Below are positions 9,076 through 38,736 of a stretch of DNA of 39,041 nucleotides, in pieces. The stretch covers positions 1-39,041 of IMG/VR virus record IMGVR_UViG_3300050821_007639. The stretch is one strand, 5' to 3'. The position numbers and the translations under genes are program-made. The DNA comes from a virus. The notes beneath the pieces are model-generated. The model was not told the DNA's origin. It ran no database searches and was given only the letters and a program-made list of their open reading frames with translations. Numbering within the stretch: the stretch's first letter is position 1; every line of letters starts with the position of its first letter.

Positions 9076-10971
9076 ATGGCGAAGGGGCGACCGGCGGATT
9101 ACGAATTGCTCGCAGAGGACGAGCGGGCGCGGCTGCGCGGGCTCGCGGGCGGGGATGAGGCGAAGTATAAGCGCCTGCTGATGCAGGCGCTGCGGGCGGC
9201 GAAGAAACGCCAGGCCGCGCGCGCGCTGGCCAGCGTCGGGGATCCGGTGGCGCCGGCGGGGCAGCTGCACTTCGCCGGCGAAGAGTTTGATCTCGAGGTA
9301 TACGACAAGAATCACAAGAACGAATTGCGTCGGCGCTGTCAGACCGACCTGTTTTTCCTCTGCAAAGAAATCTTCGGACGGGACGTGACGGAGCGGACGC
9401 ACGGGCCCGTCTTCGCCTTCCTGGGCAGCCCCGATCCGGACCGGCCGCTCGAGGACCAGCCCGATCCGATCCGCGAGCGCATCTGGCGCGATCCGCGCGG
9501 GACGTTTAAATCCTCCCTGCTTTGTGACCTCGCGATCCAATACACGATTTGCTTTCCGGAAATTCGCATCCTGTTCCTCGGTGGTGAAAAATCGCTGGCC
9601 TTCGGCTCGCTGGATATGTACACCGAGGCGTTTGTGATTCGCGGGGAGCCGACACGCTTTCAGCGCCTGTTTCCGGAGTTCTGTATTCATCCTGGCGAAA
9701 AGTATGAGCGGAAATATGTGGCGCCGTGCCGGCGGAATCCGAAGCGGCACCGCGAGCCGACGGCCTGGGCGAATTCGATCGATTCGGCGCTATCAGGCTG
9801 GCACCCCGATCTGCTCGTTCCGGACGACGTCGAGAACGACGAGAACATGGAGAACTATGAGCGCATCGGCAAGGTGAAGAAAGTCTTCTGGATGGCGTTT
9901 AAGCTGCTAGAACCTGTGCACGGACGCATGTTTTCAGGCGGGACGCGGCATGATCCGAACGACCTGGGCGGGGAGCTGATCGCGGAGCCCTCACCGCGGC
10001 GGAAGTGCCTGGTGCGGGCGGCGCTGTGGCCCAAGCTGGAGCTCGCGGCGGACCGGCGGAAGCAGCTTGAGGCGCAGCTGCGAGACCCGAACGTGCCTTC
10101 GTCAGCATTCGATCTGAACGATTGGGAGCTGCTCTTTCCGGAGCGGCTGTCGTTCGCATTTCTGATGTCACAGCGCGGGCCGGGGCTGGAGAAGTTTCAG
10201 ACGTTTGGATCGCAATATCTGAACGACCCCGTGGTGGCGGCCGGGCAGGCGACCTTTACGATCGAGGCGCTGCGGGAGGCCTCCGTGCCCGCGAACATGG
10301 TGCCAGCGATGGGCGAGATTTTCATGTCCGTGGACCTGGCCTATGCCACGAAGCGCGGCAGCGACTATACGACGATCGCCTTTGGCCTAGTGGATCAAAA
10401 CCAGCGGCTCTTCATCACTGAACTTCTTCGCGGGCGATTTGTAACGCACGAACTGGTTTGGAATATGGTGGATAGCTTCCGGCGATGGATGCCGGTGATC
10501 ATGGACGTGGAAGATACGCCGGGCGCGCGCTGGCTCCTCTCCGACCTCGACCGCATGGCCGCCGATCTGGGCGTGCATCTGAAAGTCGATTGGATTCCGG
10601 TGGACGCGTCGCCGAAGGCGAAAGATGGGCGCGTGAAATCGCTCGAGGATTTGCTGTTTCAGCGGCGTTTGTTTTTTTCGAATTCGATCGCCTGCATGGA
10701 CGATTTGTACAAGGAGTTCTGCGGATACGGCAAGGAAGCGCACGACGACATTCCCGACGTGATTTCGCAGATCGCGGTGCGGCATGTGCGGCGCCTGGTC
10801 GAGGGGATGGACGTGCCGGATTCGCCGTACGATCGCGCGGAGGAAGAGCGGCGGATGGAGCTGCACGACATGGTGTATCGCACGGGGCGCTATGCGAGGG
10901 AAGAGGAGCCGCCACCTCCGCCGGCGAATCCGTACGCGCTAGAGGAAATCATGCCAGGGTTGGACGGATGA
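9076..10971 (+). CDS. terL: Large terminase subunit (packaging ATPase and nuclease)
   Basis: This encodes 631 residues. The ATPase domain has a Walker A-like DPRGTFKSS near residue 143 and Walker B with DLLVPDDVEND near residue 247. The RNase H-fold nuclease has its expected acidic residues in MSVDLAYATKRGSDYT (near 418), IMDVEDTPG (near 476) and HDDIPDVISQ (near 557). It pumps DNA into the prohead and cuts the concatemer. ATG 9076 was chosen because it directly precedes the family-like region and follows the previous stop; the reading frame extends further upstream but overlaps the preceding gene. It overlaps the MazG-like gene by four bases. Confidence 0.92.
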   Translation: MAKGRPADYELLAEDERARLRGLAGGDEAKYKRLLMQALRAAKKRQAARALASVGDPVAPAGQLHFAGEEFDLEVYDKNHKNELRRRCQTDLFFLCKEIFGRDVTERTHGPVFAFLGSPDPDRPLEDQPDPIRERIWRDPRGTFKSSLLCDLAIQYTICFPEIRILFLGGEKSLAFGSLDMYTEAFVIRGEPTRFQRLFPEFCIHPGEKYERKYVAPCRRNPKRHREPTAWANSIDSALSGWHPDLLVPDDVENDENMENYERIGKVKKVFWMAFKLLEPVHGRMFSGGTRHDPNDLGGELIAEPSPRRKCLVRAALWPKLELAADRRKQLEAQLRDPNVPSSAFDLNDWELLFPERLSFAFLMSQRGPGLEKFQTFGSQYLNDPVVAAGQATFTIEALREASVPANMVPAMGEIFMSVDLAYATKRGSDYTTIAFGLVDQNQRLFITELLRGRFVTHELVWNMVDSFRRWMPVIMDVEDTPGARWLLSDLDRMAADLGVHLKVDWIPVDASPKAKDGRVKSLEDLLFQRRLFFSNSIACMDDLYKEFCGYGKEAHDDIPDVISQIAVRHVRRLVEGMDVPDSPYDRAEEERRMELHDMVYRTGRYAREEEPPPPPANPYALEEIMPGLDG

Positions 10972-11288
10972 GCCTTGACCTACAGACCCTCCGGACAGCA
11001 AATCTCAAACGCTGCGAAGAGTCGTTTGGGATGCATGGCGGCCTCGATGGATGGAGCGAGATGGAGTGGGGTTGCGCGGCGGCTGGAGAGATGGGAGAGC
11101 TGTGTAATCTTCTAAAGAAGCGCGGCCGCGGCGAGGACATTTCTATCGGCGAAGTAATGAAGGAAGTGGCCGACGTGATTATCTACCTTGACCTTCTTGC
11201 TGCAAAGCTGCACGTACATCTGAGTGGCCCGATCCGTGACAAATTCAACGAAGTCAGTGATCGCGTTGGAAGCGCGGTGAAACTCTGA
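10968..11288 (+). CDS. MazG-like nucleotide pyrophosphohydrolase
   Basis: This encodes 106 residues. An all-alpha NTP-PPase pattern is visible: GEMGELCNLLKK (EXXE-type site near residues 40-46) and EVMKEVADVIIYLDLLAAKL (EXXD site near residues 67-71), the four acidic positions that bind magnesium. Such enzymes hydrolyse nucleoside triphosphates, and phage versions are thought to influence (p)ppGpp or deoxynucleotide pools. It sits between terminase and portal, overlapping both (ATGA and TGATG). That is an unusual place for a metabolic enzyme but means it is co-translated with packaging genes. Confidence 0.8.
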   Translation: MSLDLQTLRTANLKRCEESFGMHGGLDGWSEMEWGCAAAGEMGELCNLLKKRGRGEDISIGEVMKEVADVIIYLDLLAAKLHVHLSGPIRDKFNEVSDRVGSAVKL

Positions 11289-14689: not shown

Positions 14690-15877
14690 ATGCGAACTGT
14701 ATTGGCGTCTGCCGCGATGGCGACGGCGCTCTCAGTTTGTGGCTTTACCGGGCATCTGAACGCGGCCGGGCTGCAATCGGCCCAGTCCGCCCAGCTGGCC
14801 CAGATGAAGTTTGTCGGGACCCGTTGGCGAAACACGGGAATTTCTCCCGCCTCCGCCACCTCGGGCAACCTGCCGCAATCCCTCGCCAAGCACTACGACA
14901 AGGAATTTATCGAAGGGCTGCACACCGAGACGCCGTTCGTCCGGTGCGCCACGCCTAAAGCCTTGCCGATGAAGAGCGGCAACCAGTACGTGCTGTTCCT
15001 CAACGTGCCGTATGGCGGGAACATCAATCAGGCCTCGGAAGGCACGGTGGGCAGCGGCATCGCCCCGTCCGTGCTGACGACCACGGCCACGATCGGCGAA
15101 TACGCCGACTACATCAACTTTTCCAGCTACGCCCTATTCACCGCGATCGACGACACGATCGTGGCGCAGGCGCGGGAGCTGGCCTACCGCCTGGCGGTCT
15201 CGCTCTCCCAGCTTACGCGCAACACGGCGGACGGGCTGAGCGCGATCGACGCGTCGGTCTCCGTGAAGCTGGCGGCGACGTCGACCACGGTGTTCACGGT
15301 CAATTCGATCGGGCAAATTCGCGCGAGCAAGATGTCGCTCGTGGGCCGCTCGGTGAAGAGCTTCGACGAAGCGCGGGCGCGGTTCGTCGGCGTGATTCAT
15401 CCCTTTACCTGGGGCGACTGCCTGAACGACACGACCAACAACAGCGCCATCGACCAGCTGAAGCACACGGTCGAAGGCCAGATGAAGATCGAAGAGCTGC
15501 CGATCAACGACCTGGCGGAAGTCTTCGAGTTGCCGGGCACGGGGATCGAGTTCTACCAGTCGAACCTGGTGACGCAGTCCCAGAACTACAACCCGGGCAC
15601 GGGCGCGGTGACGGGCCTGACGGCGCTGAGGACGTACATCTTCGGGAAGGACGCGGTGATTCGCGTGTCCTTGGACGCCCCGGGGGATACGGCGTACGGC
15701 GACGGCAGCTACCGCAACGTGAAGTGCTTCACGGAATCGAACGCTGGGCCGACGAAGTCGGATCCGAGCGGACTGATTCCGGGCTGGACCTCGTATCGAT
15801 GCCATTACACCACGACCGCGCCGCCGGACACGACGATGCGGGCGCGTACGATCGATGCGGGATCGGCGATAAGTTAA
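14690..15877 (+). CDS. Major capsid protein, N4-gp56 family
   Basis: This encodes 395 residues. It resembles the N4-gp56 capsid family, with an N-terminal region AKHYDKEFIEGLHTETPFVRC followed by KSGNQYVLFLNVPYGG. A long spine helix comes next (AQARELAYRLAVSLSQL), then the family-like HPFTWGDCLNDT and LRTYIFGKDAVIRV near the C-terminus. HK97-fold subunits form the icosahedral shell. The first 27 residues are hydrophobic and signal-like, which is odd for a capsid, so the start could lie further in. A strong terminator follows, fitting the highest-expressed gene of the operon. Confidence 0.82.
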   Translation: MRTVLASAAMATALSVCGFTGHLNAAGLQSAQSAQLAQMKFVGTRWRNTGISPASATSGNLPQSLAKHYDKEFIEGLHTETPFVRCATPKALPMKSGNQYVLFLNVPYGGNINQASEGTVGSGIAPSVLTTTATIGEYADYINFSSYALFTAIDDTIVAQARELAYRLAVSLSQLTRNTADGLSAIDASVSVKLAATSTTVFTVNSIGQIRASKMSLVGRSVKSFDEARARFVGVIHPFTWGDCLNDTTNNSAIDQLKHTVEGQMKIEELPINDLAEVFELPGTGIEFYQSNLVTQSQNYNPGTGAVTGLTALRTYIFGKDAVIRVSLDAPGDTAYGDGSYRNVKCFTESNAGPTKSDPSGLIPGWTSYRCHYTTTAPPDTTMRARTIDAGSAIS

Positions 15878-28982: not shown

Positions 28983-29531
28983 GTGAAAACCGTCAAGCAA
29001 ACGAAAGGCGAAGCTTCGGCCGCCGGCAAAGCGGGACTGCTTGAAGAATTGGTGACGAAGGACGTTTTCCTCTTCGGGCAGATCACCGACATCGGCGCCT
29101 CCGAAATCGTGCAGGCAATCGAACAGATGCGACACCAGGGTAAGAAACTGCGGCTCTGGATTTGCTCTGTGGGCGGAGACTTAGGCGGCGCGCTGGCCAT
29201 TCACGACGCCCTTACGCGCGATCCCCAGGCGGAAGCGATCGCGACGGGGAATTGCCAGAGCGCGGCGCTGCTTGTCCTGTTGGGCGCGGCGAAGCGCTGG
29301 GCCACGGGAAACACGATTTTCTTCAATCATGCGGTGCGGGGCGCGCTCGGCGAATTTATGCCGCAGGAGTTCACGCTGCCGGCGCTCGAGATCCTCGAGA
29401 AGTTGCCGAAGGGCATGTTCGGACCGGATGTGGCGGAGAAATGCGGTTTGCTGACCGCGCTGCAAGTATCGAGAGCTGCGGCGGGTGGGGAGTATACCGG
29501 TTCTGGAACCGTGGGGATTGGCCCCCTATGA
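28983..29531 (+). CDS. ClpP-like serine protease fold protein
   Basis: This encodes 182 residues from GTG 28983. It has the crotonase/ClpP fold: SVGGDLGGALAIHDAL (the oxyanion-hole region near residues 61-75), the nucleophile context GNCQSAALLVLLGA with Ser 93, and FFNHAV with His 116. The third catalytic residue, normally an Asp, is not obvious near PDVAEKCGL, so activity is uncertain. It is slightly shorter than typical ClpP (about 195). Phage relatives often process capsids, but this gene lies far from the head genes, next to lysis genes. It overlaps the next gene by four bases. Confidence 0.72.
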   Translation: MKTVKQTKGEASAAGKAGLLEELVTKDVFLFGQITDIGASEIVQAIEQMRHQGKKLRLWICSVGGDLGGALAIHDALTRDPQAEAIATGNCQSAALLVLLGAAKRWATGNTIFFNHAVRGALGEFMPQEFTLPALEILEKLPKGMFGPDVAEKCGLLTALQVSRAAAGGEYTGSGTVGIGPL

Positions 29532-29977
29532 CGGGCGATTCCTTCGTCAAAAGTCAGCTGGCGTTGCTTTGCTGGCGGAATGCGCCGGCGGGGAAGCCGT
29601 TCCAGATCCTGCAGTGCCTGGCCTTCATTGTGCGCAATCGGGTAAAGGCGGGCTGGATGGGCGGCGACTGGCTCTCGGTGATCGCGAACGATCCGGTGTA
29701 CTCGCCGTATGACGTGAATGGCCACCATCACGCAGCCCAGGCGGATCGCGCGTTGCTCGAAAGTTTTCCCGATCTGCGCGACGAAGTGTTTCAGAAGTTT
29801 CTCTGGGAGATCGACCGCATCTACGACGGCTCGCGCCAGGACGCGATGACCGAGGGAGCCGTGTGGTGGGCGGAGATCGAGCGGATCAGCCGGAAGTGGT
29901 TTCTGGAGAACATCGCTCGTAACCAGGAGCAGCATCCGCGAGTGGCGCAGGTGGCGAGTCTGACGCTGTGGAGATAA
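29528..29977 (+). CDS. Putative cell-wall hydrolase, SleB-like
   Basis: This encodes 149 residues and overlaps the ClpP-like stop (ATGA). The pattern ILQCLAFIVRNRVKAGW followed by DWLSVIANDPVYSPYDVNG, then AMTEGAVWWAEI and WFLENI resembles SleB-type spore cortex and phage cell-wall hydrolases (VLNRV...VI...P...GA.Y). The active residues are not certain from sequence. It lies before several small candidate lysis proteins, so it may belong to the lysis cassette or be a virion enzyme. Confidence 0.55.
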   Translation: MTGDSFVKSQLALLCWRNAPAGKPFQILQCLAFIVRNRVKAGWMGGDWLSVIANDPVYSPYDVNGHHHAAQADRALLESFPDLRDEVFQKFLWEIDRIYDGSRQDAMTEGAVWWAEIERISRKWFLENIARNQEQHPRVAQVASLTLWR

Positions 29978-29986
29978 GGGGGCAGA

Positions 29987-30205
29987 ATGCATTGGATCGC
30001 GGCGCACTGGACGACGATCGCGGCGGTCGGGGCCGTGCTGGGCAGCTACCACGTCGGCTCCGCCTTCGTGGATACGCTGCCGATGCCGACGACGGCGAGC
30101 AGCCAATTCTATCGCTGGCTGTTCGCGTTTTCGAACCGGCTGGCGGCGAACTATTCGCGAGCGAAGGCGGCCAACGGGCCTGCCGGGCAGCAATCCCCCA
30201 GGTGA
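29987..30205 (+). CDS. Small membrane protein, holin candidate
   Basis: This encodes 72 residues. A moderately hydrophobic stretch (TTIAAVGAVLGSYHVGSAFV) and a second amphipathic one (QFYRWLFAFSNRLAANY) precede a basic tail. One or two membrane passes and the position after a wall hydrolase fit a holin or pinholin, but hydrophobicity is modest. The GTG of the next gene overlaps its stop. Confidence 0.5.
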   Translation: MHWIAAHWTTIAAVGAVLGSYHVGSAFVDTLPMPTTASSQFYRWLFAFSNRLAANYSRAKAANGPAGQQSPR

Positions 30206-30402
30206 GTAACGGGCTGGAGCACGCGCTCGAGGAGCGGATGAGCGCGCGGATCGACTGCCAGGGCATGAGCCCGGACCGGGCCCGGCTCGCGCGAAGTTTA
30301 GTGCCGCTCTTCGCGCGCGTCGCGGCGGAGGCGGTGAGGGAAGAAGTGCGGAAAGCGAAAGCGGAGCTGAACAGGGAGAAGACAAGGAGCGAACAGCGAT
30401 GA
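30202..30402 (+). CDS. Small helical protein
   Basis: This encodes 66 residues from GTG 30202, overlapping the previous stop (GTGA). It is highly charged and helical, ending in EEVRKAKAELNREKTRSEQR. No membrane segment or motif is visible. It overlaps the next gene by four bases. A spanin-like or assembly role cannot be excluded. Confidence 0.5.
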   Translation: MSNGLEHALEERMSARIDCQGMSPDRARLARSLVPLFARVAAEAVREEVRKAKAELNREKTRSEQR

Positions 30403-30806
30403 GCGTACTCAAAAAGATCGGGATTTTTCTGGCGGGCGCGGGCGCCGATATCACCAAGATTCTGGGGTTGCCGTTCATCAGCCAATTGCTCGGAGCGATT
30501 CCCGGAAAGCTCGGCCAGGGGGTGACCACCGTCGTGAACGACGTCAAAACCGGCGTGGCGGACATGAACACGATCGCCGGAATCCTTTCGATGGCGGAGA
30601 TGATGTATCCCTCGAAAGACGGCTCGCAAACCGGATCGCAGAAGCTCGCCGCGGCATCGCCCGTGATGGGAAAGATGGTGCTGGCCTGGGCCGAATCGAA
30701 TCTGCCCGGGCACAACAAGCTGCTCGTTGCTCCGGAAGTGTTTGCCGCCAAAGTCCAGGCCTGGACCAGCGATAGCGCCGACCTCTTGAACTGTTTCGGG
30801 GAGTAG
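30399..30806 (+). CDS. Hypothetical protein with amphipathic N-terminus
   Basis: This encodes 135 residues. The N-terminus (KKIGIFLAGAGADITKILGL) is hydrophobic, then comes a region rich in Val, Asn and Thr, then AAASPVMGKMVLAWAESNLPG. The pattern resembles small phage membrane-associated proteins found after lysis genes. Function is unknown. A dispersed palindrome follows directly after the stop. Confidence 0.5.
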   Translation: MSVLKKIGIFLAGAGADITKILGLPFISQLLGAIPGKLGQGVTTVVNDVKTGVADMNTIAGILSMAEMMYPSKDGSQTGSQKLAAASPVMGKMVLAWAESNLPGHNKLLVAPEVFAAKVQAWTSDSADLLNCFGE

Positions 30807-30847: not shown

Positions 30848-31612
30848 ATGACGGAACGCAATCGAGAGCGATGGAATTGGCTGTTGGATTGGCTGTGCCT
30901 CTCACCGGTGGGGATGCTGGTGTTGTTCCTGTTAGTAGCGCTCCTAACGCTCCCGTTCCTGGGACCTCGGCCGGCGCGGGCGCAGACCTATACGGGCACG
31001 CCGGCCGGGCCCGTATTGCCGCCGAGCTGCAACGGGATGTCGAACGCGACGAACCCGTTTTTCTATCTCAACGCGCAGGTGGCGAATCAGCCGCCGGGCT
31101 TGTATCCCTGCGGCCCGGGCGGTCTCTTTGTGATCGCGGGCGCCGGGATCACGCCCGTTTACTACAGCGTGGCGGGGTCGGATTTCAGCACTGCGGCCGT
31201 CACTACCCTACAGGCGATTACGGGCCTCTCCTGGACGATGCCGGCGAATGCGGCGTTGAACCTGCCGTTCAGCTGCCATCTGGCCTACAGCCAGGCCACG
31301 GCCGCGGCGTCGGACGCCTTTGGGATTCAGGACGTGACGGTCGCGCCGACGAATCTCTTCGCCACCGGCGCCATGAATACGAATGTCACGGCCACGACGC
31401 AGGCTAACCTGCCCACGCTGACGACCACGACTGCGACGGCGATCGTCACGGCGACGCCCTCCGCGATCACCACGATCTGGAACGCCGACCTGAACGGCTT
31501 CATCGAGCAGCCCTCGAACGCGTCGGCGAGTGTGGTACAGATCATGGTCTCCACGGCCACCGCCGCGGACGTGGTGACCGTGAAGCGCGGAAGCTTCTGT
31601 CGGGTGAACTGA
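30848..31612 (+). CDS. Secreted or anchored fibre-like protein 1
   Basis: This encodes 254 residues with GGAGG upstream. A long N-terminal hydrophobic segment (VGMLVLFLLVALLTLPFLG) is followed by PARAQTYTG, a plausible signal-peptidase site (ARA-Q). The rest is a Thr/Ala/Val-rich beta domain that ends in VVTVKRGSFCRVN, similar to the C-terminal jelly-roll found in phage fibres and to the decoration-like protein at 6504. A virion protein with an export signal is unusual, because tails assemble in the cytoplasm. It may act in the envelope, on the cell surface, or be misannotated at the start. Confidence 0.6.
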   Translation: MTERNRERWNWLLDWLCLSPVGMLVLFLLVALLTLPFLGPRPARAQTYTGTPAGPVLPPSCNGMSNATNPFFYLNAQVANQPPGLYPCGPGGLFVIAGAGITPVYYSVAGSDFSTAAVTTLQAITGLSWTMPANAALNLPFSCHLAYSQATAAASDAFGIQDVTVAPTNLFATGAMNTNVTATTQANLPTLTTTTATAIVTATPSAITTIWNADLNGFIEQPSNASASVVQIMVSTATAADVVTVKRGSFCRVN

Positions 31613-31800
31613 TGAAAAGCAGATGCACGGGGCCGTACGAAACCTGGCCGCACTGGCGCATCGCGCTGCCGCGAAGGGCGAACCGTCCGGTACGCCGGCG
31701 CACGCTGCGCGAACAGGTCGGGCTCCATGCGGCGATCGCGCTGGGCCTTCTTCTGCTGTATTTTGCCGTCGCCTACAGCTGTGGATGGCTGAAACCATGA
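31612..31800 (+). CDS. Small single-pass membrane protein
   Basis: This encodes 62 residues, the start overlapping the previous stop (TGATG). After a basic N-terminal half it has one transmembrane helix (LHAAIALGLLLLYFAVAYSC). It lies between two secreted fibre-like proteins and overlaps the next start (ATGA). It may help export or anchor its neighbours. Confidence 0.6.
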   Translation: MKSRCTGPYETWPHWRIALPRRANRPVRRRTLREQVGLHAAIALGLLLLYFAVAYSCGWLKP

Positions 31801-33038
31801 GGCGGCTCAGCATCGCCGCCATGCTCTTGGCCGCCACCAGCGTGCTCGTGCCGGCGCCGGCGCGCGCTCAGGCGAGCGGCACGTTCACGGGAATCCCGTT
31901 CGGCCCGTATCTGCCCGCCGTGTGCAATCCCGGCGTCACCACGGGTGTTCCGCTCTTTTTCCTAAATACGGTGCAGGGCGGCAACGCCGTCGGGTTATAT
32001 CAATGTGCGAGCCCGAACACTTGGACGCCAGTCGGCGGACTCGGCGTCACCGGCTGTACCACAACCGGCGGCGTCGCGTTCGAGAACGGCACGCCGAACG
32101 CGTTGACCTGTAGCCTCAGCCTTAGTTTCGGCGGGGGCCAGTTAAATATCTCTGGCTTCGCCATTGCCACGAATGTTTCATCGGGCGGCGCAACAGGCAG
32201 CGGCACCGTCTATACGCTGGCCTCCGCGGGAAATGCCAGTGCCGGACTTACGACATACACCGGTTTGCTCGGCACGGCAACGATCTCGCCGGGAATGTAC
32301 GTGACAATCGCCGGATTCACGAATGGAGTGAACAACGGGCGTTTTATCGTGCAAGCCGAAAACAACGGACTTGGAACGCTTGTGCTCTACAATGCGTCAG
32401 GCGTTGCGGAATCCCATGCCGCCACAGCGACGGTGGATGAATTTTACTCAGGATCTTCGGGCGTTACCGCTACCCAGGCAAGAAGTTTCCAGTACGGTCA
32501 GCCCGGCACGATCAATAGTTTTGGAATCCGCGGCGCGAACTATTCGCTGTCAGCGTTCAATGCGACTCAGCCGGGTTCCTTAAGCTACGGGTGCGCCCTC
32601 GACGGCGACGCGACAGACGGCTGCTACATACTGGTCATAAACAATGGGGCCACGGGCGATCACGGCATCGAGATTGGCGCGATCACGGACGGAACTGGCG
32701 CGAACCCGACGGCAATCCGCCTCGGGCATTTCGGTGGGTCGAACGGCATGTTTTCGTCCATCGCCGGGGGTACATTTTTCTCTCTGGCTCAAGAAATTAC
32801 GGCGACAAGTTCAGCGTTTGCGACGGCTACGACCGCAGGAACGTGCGTGCAAAACGTGACGGCCGTTACCGGAGCAACGACCGGCATGGCAGTCGTAGCA
32901 TCGCCCGTGAGCACGCCGGGGGCCGGTGCCGTTTGGTCAGCTTTCGTCTCGAGCGCGGGCAACGTGACGATCAACGAATGCGCGGTCGCGACCAGCGCCG
33001 GTGGAAGCATCGCCTTTAATATTCGAGTGATCCCGTAA
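31797..33038 (+). CDS. Secreted fibre-like protein 2
   Basis: This encodes 413 residues. A textbook Sec signal peptide, MRRLSIAAMLLAATSVLVPA followed by PARAQ, gives a cleavage site near residue 25. The mature protein is rich in Gly, Thr, Ala and Asn, with repeated short strands (SSGGATGSGTVYTLASAGNA) and a C-terminal domain with VQNVTAVTGATTGMAVV and SAGNVTINECAVATS. This C-terminal type is a trimeric beta-structure of phage fibres. The start was chosen by overlap with the preceding stop and by the signal peptide. Composition is somewhat less GC-rich than in the head genes. Confidence 0.65.
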   Translation: MRRLSIAAMLLAATSVLVPAPARAQASGTFTGIPFGPYLPAVCNPGVTTGVPLFFLNTVQGGNAVGLYQCASPNTWTPVGGLGVTGCTTTGGVAFENGTPNALTCSLSLSFGGGQLNISGFAIATNVSSGGATGSGTVYTLASAGNASAGLTTYTGLLGTATISPGMYVTIAGFTNGVNNGRFIVQAENNGLGTLVLYNASGVAESHAATATVDEFYSGSSGVTATQARSFQYGQPGTINSFGIRGANYSLSAFNATQPGSLSYGCALDGDATDGCYILVINNGATGDHGIEIGAITDGTGANPTAIRLGHFGGSNGMFSSIAGGTFFSLAQEITATSSAFATATTAGTCVQNVTAVTGATTGMAVVASPVSTPGAGAVWSAFVSSAGNVTINECAVATSAGGSIAFNIRVIP

Positions 33039-33072
33039 ATGTAAAATTTCGCGGAGAGGATTGGAGCTGCGG

Positions 33073-35340
33073 ATGCGAAGTTACTCGAAATTAGCGATCT
33101 GGCTGATCCCGATCATGGCCGCCGCGGTTGTCATTCTGGCGGGACGCGGAAGCGGTCCTGCGCTACAGCGCTCTGCGCTGACTGCATTCGGGCCGGCACG
33201 CTATCAGCCCATCGGAATGCCGGGGCGCCGGATTGACGGATATCGAGTGGATCCCGTATCGCGTCATTTGCTCGCGCATGTCGTTCCTGCCGCTGATCCG
33301 CAAGGGACTGGCGCCTGGATGACGGCTGCGGGGATTGACGGTCTCGTTCCCGTAGCGATTAAGGTGGCCGCTGACGGGACATTGGCCACGGGAGCCGACC
33401 CTGGCGGCGCGATCGCGCAGTGTAGCGCGTGTGTCGTGATCGGCGGCATGAACGGCTTGACGCCGACGGCGCTAAAAGTGGGAAGCGATGGCACGGTGGC
33501 AGCCTCCGGCGGCGGCGCTACCGGCGCGCCATCTCTGGTCTCCGCTAACGTGATCGGAGATTACCGCTTCACGGAAGGATCTGGGACAACAGACGTGGAT
33601 GTCTCGGGCCATAGCGGGGTCGTGACGCTCGTCAATTCTCCGACATGGGTCACAGGCGGCGGTGTTACCTGCACGAGCGGCAGCAGCCAGTACATTTCTG
33701 TCCCGACTTCGATCACTACGACTGCGGTGTCGGTGGAAATGTATGTCAGCGTTCAATATTCCAACATCGGTGCATTGCAGCAGAGGGCACTCATCATCAA
33801 CAGCGGAGGCGGAGCGACTTCAAACACCAGCGGCATCCTCGTGGATACCAGCAACGCGTTTCTAGGACCCGTGAACACCGGCGCCCCCGACATTGGAGCG
33901 TTCAAAAATGGCGGCTTCGGCGAAGCCTACGAGAACTCGTACAACGGGACTGGTCTCATAACCTGGGTCAAGGGATCGAGCGCGGACGCGATTTACTTGA
34001 ACGGCCAGCAATCCAGTCAACTGGTTCAAAATTCGGGCACGCTGGGCGTGGATACCGGCAACAATTTTCAGATTTGCGGCGCTGCAGCCGGATCGGGATA
34101 TGCCAGCTCAACCTATCTGACGATGACAGTCTACTGGGTGCGATTTTTCAGCGCCGCGCTTACTGCGCCGCAAGTCACGACCGACTATGTAGGCATGTCC
34201 TCAATCGAAGCAGGCAACGGTTTCCCGGTTAGCGTCGGCGGAACCGATCAGATTAACTATGCTATTGATGTTGGAGATTCATTGACAGCAGCCCCTGGAG
34301 GTTCGGTAGCCTATCCCACGCTTCTCGTCCTCAATAACTCTTTGGTGACGGGTGTTCGCGGGGTATCTGGTCAACAAACCAACACGTTAATCAGTAATTT
34401 CCCCGTTATTGTGCCGCCATTCTACCGTTCATCGGCGCAGTTTTCACTTTTTAATTACTGGGAAGGTACAAACGATTCAGGTGGGGGTCTCACGGCGACG
34501 CAAACCGCCGGAAACCAAAGAAAATTCTGCACCCTCGTTCATCAGCTGGGCGGGAAGTGCAGCTTGATGACAATGATCGCTCGCGGCTCGAGCGCCTTTG
34601 CTTTTGCTGAAAGTGTAAATCCCCTGACTCGCCAACTTGTCGCGAACGGTTACGCCGACATGGTGATCGACATTGCCGCCGATACAAACTTCGCTCCGGG
34701 CAATGCGGCGACAGGGACTTGCTTCCTCGGAGATCAGACGCACTACACGACGGCGTGCTCCTACAACAATGTCTCGATCATGGTGCAGGCCGCAATCAAT
34801 AGCCTGTACGGAAATTGGAGCTTCGGAACGGCGAACACCTACTCATCCGCTGGTGCTGCGGCCATCGCAACGACAGCAGGCTCGGAATCCACGAACACGA
34901 TGACGTTCACCTCAGCGGGGTGGACTGCGGCGACGTTTGTCGTCGGAACTCGGATGGTCTGCGCCGGGATCACGCCGGCGGGGTATAACGGCGTGTGGCA
35001 AATCCTCTCGAACGGCGGAACGACCGTCACGGCCTACAACGGAACGACGGGGCTCGGTGCGATCACGATCCAAGGAACCTGTCAGGGCGAGCAGCTTCAG
35101 CAGGCAGACAACTATGCCATCCTGAACAGCGGCGGAAATTTCCTGCTTTCGAGCTGCCTTGACTGGGTCGGCCGAAACGTAAATCTGTGGAACAGTAACG
35201 GCTCGTCCAGCACGCTCGTAGCGTTCAACTCCGAGACTTTCGTTGGAAGCACAACGGTGACTTCCAATGCCGTGGCGATGCTTAGCTCGGTGCTTACGAG
35301 CAACACGGCTGGCGGGTGTAAGTGGGTGCGGCTGCAATAA
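33073..35340 (+). CDS. Tail-fibre-like protein with LamG and SGNH hydrolase domains
   Basis: This encodes 755 residues from ATG 33073, with GGAG upstream; TTG 33061 is an alternative. An N-terminal membrane-like segment (LAIWLIPIMAAAVVILAG) is followed by a linker. A LamG/concanavalin-like domain (GDYRFTEGSGTTDVDVSGHS, about residues 155-370) comes next. Then an SGNH esterase domain shows block I GDSLTA near 402, block III GTND near 466 and block V GDQTHY near 554, so the Ser, Asn and Asp-His pieces are all present. Such domains remove acetyl groups from surface polysaccharides. The last 150 residues form a beta-rich C-terminal region. It is probably the receptor-binding or capsule-modifying protein. 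Confidence 0.75.
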   Translation: MRSYSKLAIWLIPIMAAAVVILAGRGSGPALQRSALTAFGPARYQPIGMPGRRIDGYRVDPVSRHLLAHVVPAADPQGTGAWMTAAGIDGLVPVAIKVAADGTLATGADPGGAIAQCSACVVIGGMNGLTPTALKVGSDGTVAASGGGATGAPSLVSANVIGDYRFTEGSGTTDVDVSGHSGVVTLVNSPTWVTGGGVTCTSGSSQYISVPTSITTTAVSVEMYVSVQYSNIGALQQRALIINSGGGATSNTSGILVDTSNAFLGPVNTGAPDIGAFKNGGFGEAYENSYNGTGLITWVKGSSADAIYLNGQQSSQLVQNSGTLGVDTGNNFQICGAAAGSGYASSTYLTMTVYWVRFFSAALTAPQVTTDYVGMSSIEAGNGFPVSVGGTDQINYAIDVGDSLTAAPGGSVAYPTLLVLNNSLVTGVRGVSGQQTNTLISNFPVIVPPFYRSSAQFSLFNYWEGTNDSGGGLTATQTAGNQRKFCTLVHQLGGKCSLMTMIARGSSAFAFAESVNPLTRQLVANGYADMVIDIAADTNFAPGNAATGTCFLGDQTHYTTACSYNNVSIMVQAAINSLYGNWSFGTANTYSSAGAAAIATTAGSESTNTMTFTSAGWTAATFVVGTRMVCAGITPAGYNGVWQILSNGGTTVTAYNGTTGLGAITIQGTCQGEQLQQADNYAILNSGGNFLLSSCLDWVGRNVNLWNSNGSSSTLVAFNSETFVGSTTVTSNAVAMLSSVLTSNTAGGCKWVRLQ

Positions 35341-36895: not shown

Positions 36896-37150
36896 ATGGA
36901 ATACCAGATGGTGGCGTGCGATCGCTGTCATCGCAGCTACAAGGCTCACACCGATCCGGCAGTTGAAATGGTCAAGATGACGGTTCTCGTGCCGGAAGGT
37001 CACATCACACAGACGAGCAAATACGAATCGCGAGAGGTGCATCTCTGTCGGGGCTGTCATCTCTCCTTCCGGCACTGGTGGGTCGCCGGCGATCCGGAGA
37101 CACGGACGGCCGCCGAAGGTCTGCCGGCTGAAGCGGGAGGCGACCGATGA
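36896..37150 (+). CDS. Small zinc-ribbon protein, first gene of the ParB operon
   Basis: This encodes 84 residues. ATG 36896 was chosen for the strong GAGGAGG upstream; ATG 36857 inside the operator would extend it in frame. CDRCHRSY near residue 7 and LCRGCHLSF near residue 46 make a C4-type zinc ribbon. It overlaps ParB by four bases. The function is unknown; a partner in the ParB complex is possible. Confidence 0.65.
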   Translation: MEYQMVACDRCHRSYKAHTDPAVEMVKMTVLVPEGHITQTSKYESREVHLCRGCHLSFRHWWVAGDPETRTAAEGLPAEAGGDR

Positions 37151-38736
37151 GCATGAACGCGCCTGATTCGCTAGCCGCTGTTTCCACCGGTATCCAGAGA
37201 ATCCCGCTCGCACAGCTGCGCGAATCGCCGATGAATCCGCGCAAGGCGTTTGACGCGGCGAAGCTGAAAGAGCTCGCGGAATCGATCCGGCAGAAGGGAA
37301 TTCTCACGCCGCTGCTCGTTCGCCGCCGGAAATACGAGCTCGCGTCCAAAGCCGCCACAGAGCCTGACATGACCTATGAGATCCTCGCCGGCGCACGGCG
37401 CTTTCGCGCGGCTAAATTGGTGGCGGAAATCCTCGGCGCCGGCGACGCGCCATGCCTCGTCCTGGAGGTCGGCGACACCGCGGCGCTCGAAATCATCACG
37501 ATGGAGAACCTGCAGCGCGAAGACTTGACGGCGCTCGAGGAAGCGCAAGGGTTCAAGCAGCTGCTCGATCTCGGCAAATACGACGTCGGCGAACTCGCGA
37601 AGCGCCTGGGCAAGAGCCAGAGTTATGTGTACCAGCGCATCAAGCTGGTCGACCTGGCGCCCGATGCCGCGAAAGCCCTCGTCGAGAACAGGATCACGCC
37701 CGGGCACGCCATCCTGATTGCCCGCCTGCAGCCGAATGATCAGGCGCGCGCGCTGAGGGAAGCGGCGCCGACACGATACAATCCCCTCGGCCGAAGCGTA
37801 CGCGAGCTCGGCAATTTCATCAAGGAGCAGATTCAGCTCGATCTCACACGCGCGCCCTGGAACCTCGACGACCCGACGCTCCTGTCCGTCGCCCGGGCAG
37901 CATCCTGTAGTGCCTGTCCGAAGCGTGAGAAGGATTCCTGTCTCGATCCCGCCTGCTACGAAGCGAAGCTCGCGGCGCATCTCCTGCGCGTGGAAAAGGG
38001 CGCGGGCGGGCGTTTGCTGAAATTGTCGGCCGAATATGGCGGCGGCGAAGGCCTGCTCGGAAAAATAAAATGGCACGAAGCGAAGCCGGGCAGCTGTCCG
38101 GACGCGACCGCCGGCCTGGTGATGGAGGGCGGCTGGGCAAACGGCCGAGAGCACAGGCGTGGCGAGCAGCTCACTGTCTGCGTCAATCCGAAATGCAAGG
38201 TCCACTGGAAACAGGAAACGGCTGCGGGCAGTTCCTCGTACAAGCGCCCCGCGGCCGAGCTGAAAAAAGAGCGCAAGAGGCGCGAGGAGCTCGCGAAGCG
38301 CGGCCGGCTGTTTAAGGCGCTGACGGAAAAGCGCATCGTCGTCACGGACGACGACACGCGCAAGATCGCGGACTGGATGGCCGATCGTTTGGATCACGAC
38401 CATATTAGTAACAAGGCCAAGCGGCTGTGCGAGGCGATGGGCTGGGAACCGGCCAAGACGAATTACGGCGGTAAAGGTTATGAGGGTGCTGTCCGTAAGC
38501 GACTGAAAGCAATGAAGATCGAAGACGTCGAGCAGTGGATCCTCTGGCTCGTGATCGCCGACGAGGATCTGTATTTTGGCACCTGGGAGACGCCCCGGCC
38601 GGGCCTGCTGGCGGCCTGCGTGAAGCGCGCCAAGATCAAACTGCCGCCGCCCGTCGCCAAAACGCCCGCGAAGCCGAAATCGCACACGTCTGCAAAAGTC
38701 AAGCCGGCGCCGGCCAAGAAGAAGAGGGCGGCATGA
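37147..38736 (+). CDS. parB: ParB/Spo0J-like DNA-binding protein with internal cysteine cluster
   Basis: This encodes 529 residues. The N-terminal ParB domain has IPLAQLRESPMNPRKAFD, box II GARRFRAAK near residue 85 and NLQREDLTALEEAQGF. The KorB-like helix-turn-helix DVGELAKRLGKSQSYVYQRI lies near residue 147. Residues about 254-280 hold a four-cysteine cluster (CSACPKREKDSC, CYEAK), and a later CVNPKCK is present. The C-terminus is a Lys/Pro tail. ParB proteins bind centromere-like sites and usually work with a ParA ATPase, which is not seen here. This longer, cysteine-bearing type is known from plasmids and other mobile elements. The gene has its own operator-controlled promoter upstream and a dispersed palindrome in its 3' end. 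Confidence 0.85.
   Translation: MSMNAPDSLAAVSTGIQRIPLAQLRESPMNPRKAFDAAKLKELAESIRQKGILTPLLVRRRKYELASKAATEPDMTYEILAGARRFRAAKLVAEILGAGDAPCLVLEVGDTAALEIITMENLQREDLTALEEAQGFKQLLDLGKYDVGELAKRLGKSQSYVYQRIKLVDLAPDAAKALVENRITPGHAILIARLQPNDQARALREAAPTRYNPLGRSVRELGNFIKEQIQLDLTRAPWNLDDPTLLSVARAASCSACPKREKDSCLDPACYEAKLAAHLLRVEKGAGGRLLKLSAEYGGGEGLLGKIKWHEAKPGSCPDATAGLVMEGGWANGREHRRGEQLTVCVNPKCKVHWKQETAAGSSSYKRPAAELKKERKRREELAKRGRLFKALTEKRIVVTDDDTRKIADWMADRLDHDHISNKAKRLCEAMGWEPAKTNYGGKGYEGAVRKRLKAMKIEDVEQWILWLVIADEDLYFGTWETPRPGLLAACVKRAKIKLPPPVAKTPAKPKSHTSAKVKPAPAKKKRAA
38679..38696. repeat. Dispersed 18-bp palindrome, copy 7
   Basis: ATCGCACACGTCTGCAAA matches the consensus at 15 of 18 positions, with the right half intact. 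It is inside the parB reading frame near its end. Confidence 0.6.

Follow-up and report, generated by a model that had tools for sequence, protein, structure and literature searches.

The DNA analysed here, hereafter the window, spans an entire IMG/VR virus record (39,041 bases), whose genes include those for a terminase, a head-tail adaptor/portal-type protein and a major head protein. The last of these shares 57% identity with its counterpart in Tunturi_3, the sole INPHARED phage matched and a cultured podovirus of Tunturiibacter (Acidobacteriota), and the terminase, portal, head and tail genes follow the same order in both. Judged from sequence, the window virus is podovirus-like and related to Tunturi_3, and the head protein match makes an acidobacterial host likely. 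A terminase scan of IMG/VR returned zero relatives, and the window genome may be incomplete. A block of three fibre-like genes closes the structural region, just 3' of the lysis genes and not in the gp13-gp19 slot used by relatives; no fibre-like proteins beyond these three were seen in the window and no bare fibre adaptor was identified in it. The lysis neighbourhood (28983..30205, plus strand) comprises genes for a ClpP-like protease (28983; Pfam CLP_protease match), an endolysin-like protein (29528) and a small holin-like protein (29987), the latter two labels being based only on position and resemblance to Tunturi_3 gp26/gp27. It lies just upstream of an ORF for a 135-aa hydrophobic protein (30399..30806, plus strand), which is 5' of the fibre block and outside the exported set. 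A 529-aa ParB-like protein, so judged by eye only, is encoded close to the right end of the record (37147-38736). The MCP ORFs of the window (14690-15877) and of L011, a virus of the same group (9878-10987), have hydrophobic signal-like N-terminal extensions (MRTVLASAAMATALSVCGFTGHLNA... and MKILSTIVNVAIVGLVVMALAAVF..., respectively) with Shine-Dalgarno-like sites at their start; these extensions, which are missing in Tunturi_3 and other relatives, may represent a delta-like domain, a wrongly placed start or something unusual.

The three fibre-like ORFs are genuine, well-scored and on the same (plus) strand. Protein 1 (254 aa; 30848..31612), preceded by a GGAGG Shine-Dalgarno, has an N-terminal Cys-pair module in common with protein 2 and contains five Cys, one of them inside the leader, giving a mature count of four. 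Protein 2 (413 aa, 8 mature Cys; 31797..33038) carries the paralogous Cys-pair module at 31869..32039 and a C-terminal domain common to other phages' fibre-like proteins at 32844..33035. Its C-terminal 64-81 aa are 63-84% identical to the ends of fibre-like proteins in three other loci (L002-L004), which likewise start with hydrophobic leaders, and beyond the window the N-terminal Cys module was found only in L002, itself part of the profile. Residues 166-215 of protein 2 (50 aa; 32292-32441) share 58% identity with Tunturi_3 gp7, a non-exported protein whose gene lies just 3' of the capsid gene. A sequence-only reading of this DNA had placed a small membrane protein amid the fibre genes, and we indeed find a 62-aa ORF with one TM segment between the first two (31612..31800, plus strand). 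It has a low coding score and no Shine-Dalgarno, and is probably translated by coupling since it overlaps both neighbours (TGATG and ATGA); from this arrangement, the small ORF and the fibre genes on either side of it are probably translated together.

Protein 3 (755 aa, 12 Cys; 33073..35340) is spike-like and its distal part is mosaic. Over residues ~150-755 it shares 89-95% identity with proteins of three further loci (L005-L007) that have unrelated signal peptides and N-domains, so that the distal 600 aa occur behind different leaders and N-domains in other phages. A LamG/concanavalin-like region (33535..34197, plus strand) is indicated by a tblastn match to Tunturi_5 gp342, which itself scores Laminin_G_3; the region has no direct Pfam match in the window. 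It is followed by an SGNH/GDSL hydrolase domain (34240..34842, plus strand; Pfam Lipase_GDSL_2, E=2.5e-5, with a bit score of 25.3 that is below the family's curated cut-off of 32.9), in which the motifs VGDSLT, WEGTND and DQTH occur in the order of the GDSL, G-x-N-D and D-x-x-H blocks. PHROGs and Pfam searches with whole-length window proteins returned no match to any of the three fibres, and a PDB sequence search with protein 3 gave no match. An AlphaFold model of protein 3, built from a four-sequence alignment, had a pLDDT of 30 and was discarded.

Each of the three proteins begins with a hydrophobic export-like segment and two of them have an A-R-A-Q cleavage-like site, as the sequence-only reading had observed. 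The N-termini (a slash marks the likely cleavage point) are MTERNRERWNWLLDWLCLSPVGMLVLFLLVALLTLPFLGPRPARA/Q in protein 1, MRRLSIAAMLLAATSVLVPAPARA/Q in protein 2 and MRSYSKLAIWLIPIMAAAVVILA/GRG in protein 3, and the first two leaders end in P-x-P-A-R-A/Q. Signal peptides were scored with an in-house rule-based caller, not SignalP, which was positive for 2/468 of the relatives' core structural proteins, scored lambda Lom as exported and called none of the T7, lambda and IME180 fibres. In signal-peptide prediction, which had been suggested as a check, protein 2 was called as having a Sec signal peptide (31797..31868; PAPARA/QASG) and protein 3 as having a signal anchor (33073..33141), and protein 1 was rejected because the net charge of its n-region is zero. 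The putative signal peptide of protein 1 (30848..30982; PRPARA/QTYTG) has the strongest hydrophobic core of the three and a perfect A-R-A site, and its export character rests on inspection. Of the type I features, the protein 2 leader has the n-region charge, the core and the AxA site; that of protein 3 has two, and its possible site (VILA/GRG) is weaker than the other two and not a strong AxA site. No lipobox was seen in the three leaders. When the first 50 residues were shuffled with composition preserved, the observed hydrophobicity was reached in 0.14%, 4.5% and 1.0% of trials for proteins 1, 2 and 3, respectively.

Exported fibres appear, on sequence comparison, not to be peculiar to the window, and many Acidobacteriota phage relatives look alike in this respect. 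In IMG/VR, the relatives found for proteins 2 and 3 carry signal peptides too, often on two to three consecutive fibre-like proteins, and these signal peptides are mutually unrelated in sequence. Searching with the major head protein recovered 80 related soil viruses, and in 7 of these loci, ~7-9 kb 3' of the head gene, a Sec leader is followed by a common domain (QQPQ...NGVAPGY). Scanning for this domain, with search patterns placed within it and not in the leader, identified 45 viral loci, ~44 of which show, immediately N-terminal to the domain, a Sec signal peptide recognised either by the rule set or on visual inspection (rule calls: 40 SP, 1 lipo, 1 TM and 3 none, two of the last being plainly signal peptides). 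The leaders diverge freely and the A-x-A/Q site and the mature end /QQPQ are kept across dozens of them, as expected of a working, cleaved signal peptide. Searched against bacterial genomes, the relatives' N-domain matched only three Acidobacteria MAG contigs, one of them equal in length to an IMG/VR record already in the collection, and a host-gene origin is therefore not favoured. The exported-fibre clusters of seven viruses (L142-L148) each also encode a conserved single-TM protein of ~90-98 aa (SEPDGSGSSTRIH...FGVATHQK), of which Tunturi_3 gp27, encoded after the endolysin gene, may be a distant relative; this protein might be a holin linked to the release of fibres.

Proteins that are exported and disulphide-bonded are known to favour even numbers of Cys (PMC7678975), and the mature counts of the window proteins (4, 8 and 12) are all even. 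Even mature counts are found in 35/37 proteins of the NGVAPGY-domain set and in 67/77 of the signal-peptide proteins of at least 200 aa from all loci. After dereplication at 40% identity the exported set retains 40/48 (p=3e-6), as against 88/208 (42%) of the dereplicated leaderless proteins, or 58/112 of those with at least four Cys. The exported proteins are also richer in Cys (1.72 versus 0.73 per 100 aa in the non-exported ones), and the Cys pair of the domain is kept or lost as a unit, with both residues kept in 33 cases, both absent in 2 and a single one present in 2 (p=0.009). As the Cys were counted outside the leader, two separate signatures agree on export. The recurrence of the leaders and the Cys parity lead us to reject the possibility that they are hydrophobic stretches arisen by chance. 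Thus, it is strongly supported by these sequence signatures that the fibres are exported via Sec and acquire disulphides.

The same pattern is seen in cultured phages. Tunturi_1 and Tunturi_2 (podovirus-like), Tunturi_4 (siphovirus-like) and Tunturi_5 (a myovirus-like jumbo phage) have fibre, spike or virion structural proteins that bear signal peptides, and most of their exported proteins are annotated as tail fibre, spike or virion protein. Their mature Cys counts are 20, 10, 20, (1) and 32 in Tunturi_1, 20, 10, 20, (1) and 34 in Tunturi_2, 8 and 20 in Tunturi_4, and 18, 6, 14 and 12 in Tunturi_5, all even except in one 149-aa protein. Thus, these fibres (PMC11924767) resemble those of the window in their Sec signal peptides, even and high Cys counts and inferred host phylum, but are otherwise unrelated in sequence, barring the distant homology of the tail fibre gp342 of Tunturi_5 (Laminin_G_3 and GDSL) to protein 3. 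The main text of that paper makes no mention of export signals on the fibres. The occurrence of exported fibres across all three tail types suggests that the trait goes with the host group and not with a single viral lineage; it is not obligatory, since Tunturi_3, the cultured phage most closely related to the window virus, has ordinary fibres without signal peptides. Directly 5' of gp341/342 in Tunturi_5, two small signal-peptide proteins with no mature Cys, gp339 and gp340 (L182, 28138-28921), may be secreted chaperones or connectors.

Could the leaders be an artefact of wrongly chosen start codons or of host contigs, and so be no real part of phage fibres? Starts are predicted and the records are mostly metagenomic, which leaves room for such errors. 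However, a good Shine-Dalgarno is present at the signal-peptide start in most loci, the exported-fibre contigs also carry the MCP, along with portal and terminase where the contig reaches that far, and the cultured genomes, which are complete and have submitter-annotated starts, already contradict this explanation. We consider it very improbable. A somewhat less remote but still quite unlikely reading is that the leaders remain uncleaved, serving as an inner-membrane anchor or a hydrophobic virion plug, with tails completed at the membrane. The signal-anchor-like leader of protein 3 with its weak cleavage site, the hydrophobic N-termini of the two MCPs of the group and the small TM protein in 7/7 of the exported-fibre clusters examined would all suit such tethering. 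Yet the recurrence of A-x-A/Q sites before the conserved mature end in dozens of divergent leaders argues for cleavage, and the even Cys counts indicate full translocation.

Comparison of closely related viruses bears on what the exported proteins do. Among viruses with a head protein 85-89% identical to the Tunturi_3 one, exported fibres are encoded between gp13 and gp19, the slot that holds ordinary fibres in Tunturi_3 itself. The gp15 of Tunturi_3, a phage of the same virus group as the window, shares that slot but combines adaptor and distal fibre in one chain, lacks a signal peptide and has few Cys. Ordinary gp15 proteins consist of an adaptor of ~112 aa and a distal part, adding up to 163-493 aa (19 viruses), whereas 8/9 exported-fibre viruses, but 0/19 others, have a gp15 that is no more than the bare adaptor (111-117 aa; Fisher p=3e-6); the exception is one exported-fibre virus (L062/L064) with a gp15 of 233 aa. 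The domain that follows the signal peptide in the relatives was modelled with a pLDDT of ~90 over its core, and is similar in fold to the cyanophage A-1(L) tail fibre (Z 12.1), the receptor-binding protein (RBP) of lactococcal phage p2 (Z 8.6-9.2) and, more weakly, BPP-1 Mtd (Z ~7). These matches concern the NGVAPGY domain of the relatives, which is different from the N-module of the window proteins. None of the p2 RBP, Mtd and the A-1(L) fibre is known to have a signal peptide. Taken with the gene slot, the shortened gp15, the distal mosaicism of protein 3 and its hydrolase domain, these similarities suggest that the exported proteins are probably virion tail fibres.

The main rival to that interpretation accepts export and disulphide bonding, but supposes that the proteins stay in the envelope or the medium, where they block or trim receptors and so stop superinfection or the loss of progeny to debris. 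Signal peptides and the disulphide signature fit this equally well, and an SGNH hydrolase such as that of protein 3 could strip receptor modifications. There is also a parallel in lambda Lom, encoded between J and stf in the tail-fibre gene region, which is likewise a phage-encoded Sec-exported protein and is classed as exported by our caller; it differs in being a 206-aa outer-membrane protein that is not fibre-like and has its sole Cys in the leader. Against surface display, the relatives' proteins fill the fibre slot and are found where gp15 has lost its distal part, their post-signal-peptide domain folds like domains of phage fibres and receptor-binding proteins, and the window leaders have no visible lipobox. 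Moreover, as every spike- or fibre-sized protein of the Tunturi_1/2 cluster is exported, these phages would be left without an obvious other receptor-binding protein. We therefore regard surface display as unlikely, though less so than uncleaved leaders. Of the three options that had been offered for the window proteins (surface proteins of infected cells or lysogens, adsorption blockers and an unusual virion-assembly route), the last is the best supported, favoured by the fibre slot, the tail-fibre fold, the swapped receptor-binding ends and the replaced distal gp15 of the relatives, and the first two are less so.

We hypothesize that these viruses use Sec-exported, periplasmically disulphide-bonded tail fibres or spikes that join the virions at lysis, a reading that we think reasonably probable. 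Set against it are the rejection of protein 1 by the caller and the weak site of protein 3, the position of the window's fibre block after the lysis genes, the failure to find a bare adaptor there, the difference between its N-module and the modelled domain, the ordinary fibres of Tunturi_3 and the 233-aa gp15 of L062/L064. The fibre would be made with a Sec signal peptide, cross the inner membrane and be trimmed by signal peptidase, upon which its Cys would pair into disulphides within the oxidising periplasm. The mature fibres would plausibly wait there as heads, tails and small adaptors assemble in the cytoplasm, and lysis would mix the two compartments, perhaps allowing the fibres to dock on the tail via their N-terminal domain and the adaptor. 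In the window, the N-terminal Cys-pair module is common to proteins 1 and 2, and protein 3 bears a carbohydrate-esterase-type (SGNH) head. A precedent for late joining is T4, in which fibre attachment is a late, spontaneous step. Disulphide-stabilised fibres are the likely gain from export. That the tailed phages of Acidobacteriota split their assembly across the envelope in this manner, with cytoplasmic head, tail and adaptor and periplasmic fibres meeting at lysis, and that podo-, sipho- and myoviruses alike adopt this arrangement according to host phylum, is a broader proposition on which we are evenly divided.

Assembly of tailed phages is taught as entirely cytoplasmic, and export signals on tail fibres are unexpected for that reason; this premise of the sequence-only reading agrees with the literature that we found, and searches of the open-access literature yielded no precedent for tail fibres with signal peptides, for exported tailspikes or for disulphides in them. 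In Inoviridae, structural proteins are inserted or exported before assembly and pIII has disulphides, but, unlike in tailed phages, the complete virion forms at the membrane, and there is no tail, head or lysis. If the proposed route is correct, tailed phages gain disulphide chemistry for robust fibres, and virions from one co-infected cell would share fibres. Pipelines that take a signal peptide to indicate a host gene would then miss the receptor-binding proteins of an abundant group of soil viruses, affecting annotation and host-range prediction. The absence of signal peptides has been used as support for the phage origin of variable proteins (PMC6199706). As cultured phage-host pairs exist, the question is testable now. 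Several of the relatives also encode trypsin-like proteins with a signal peptide in their structural region (CSGTVVGPHAILTA / CTATAIGPHALLTA motifs), for example at L023 7987-8649, L043 15528-16301, L055 8416-9162 and L092 14957-15649, among others.
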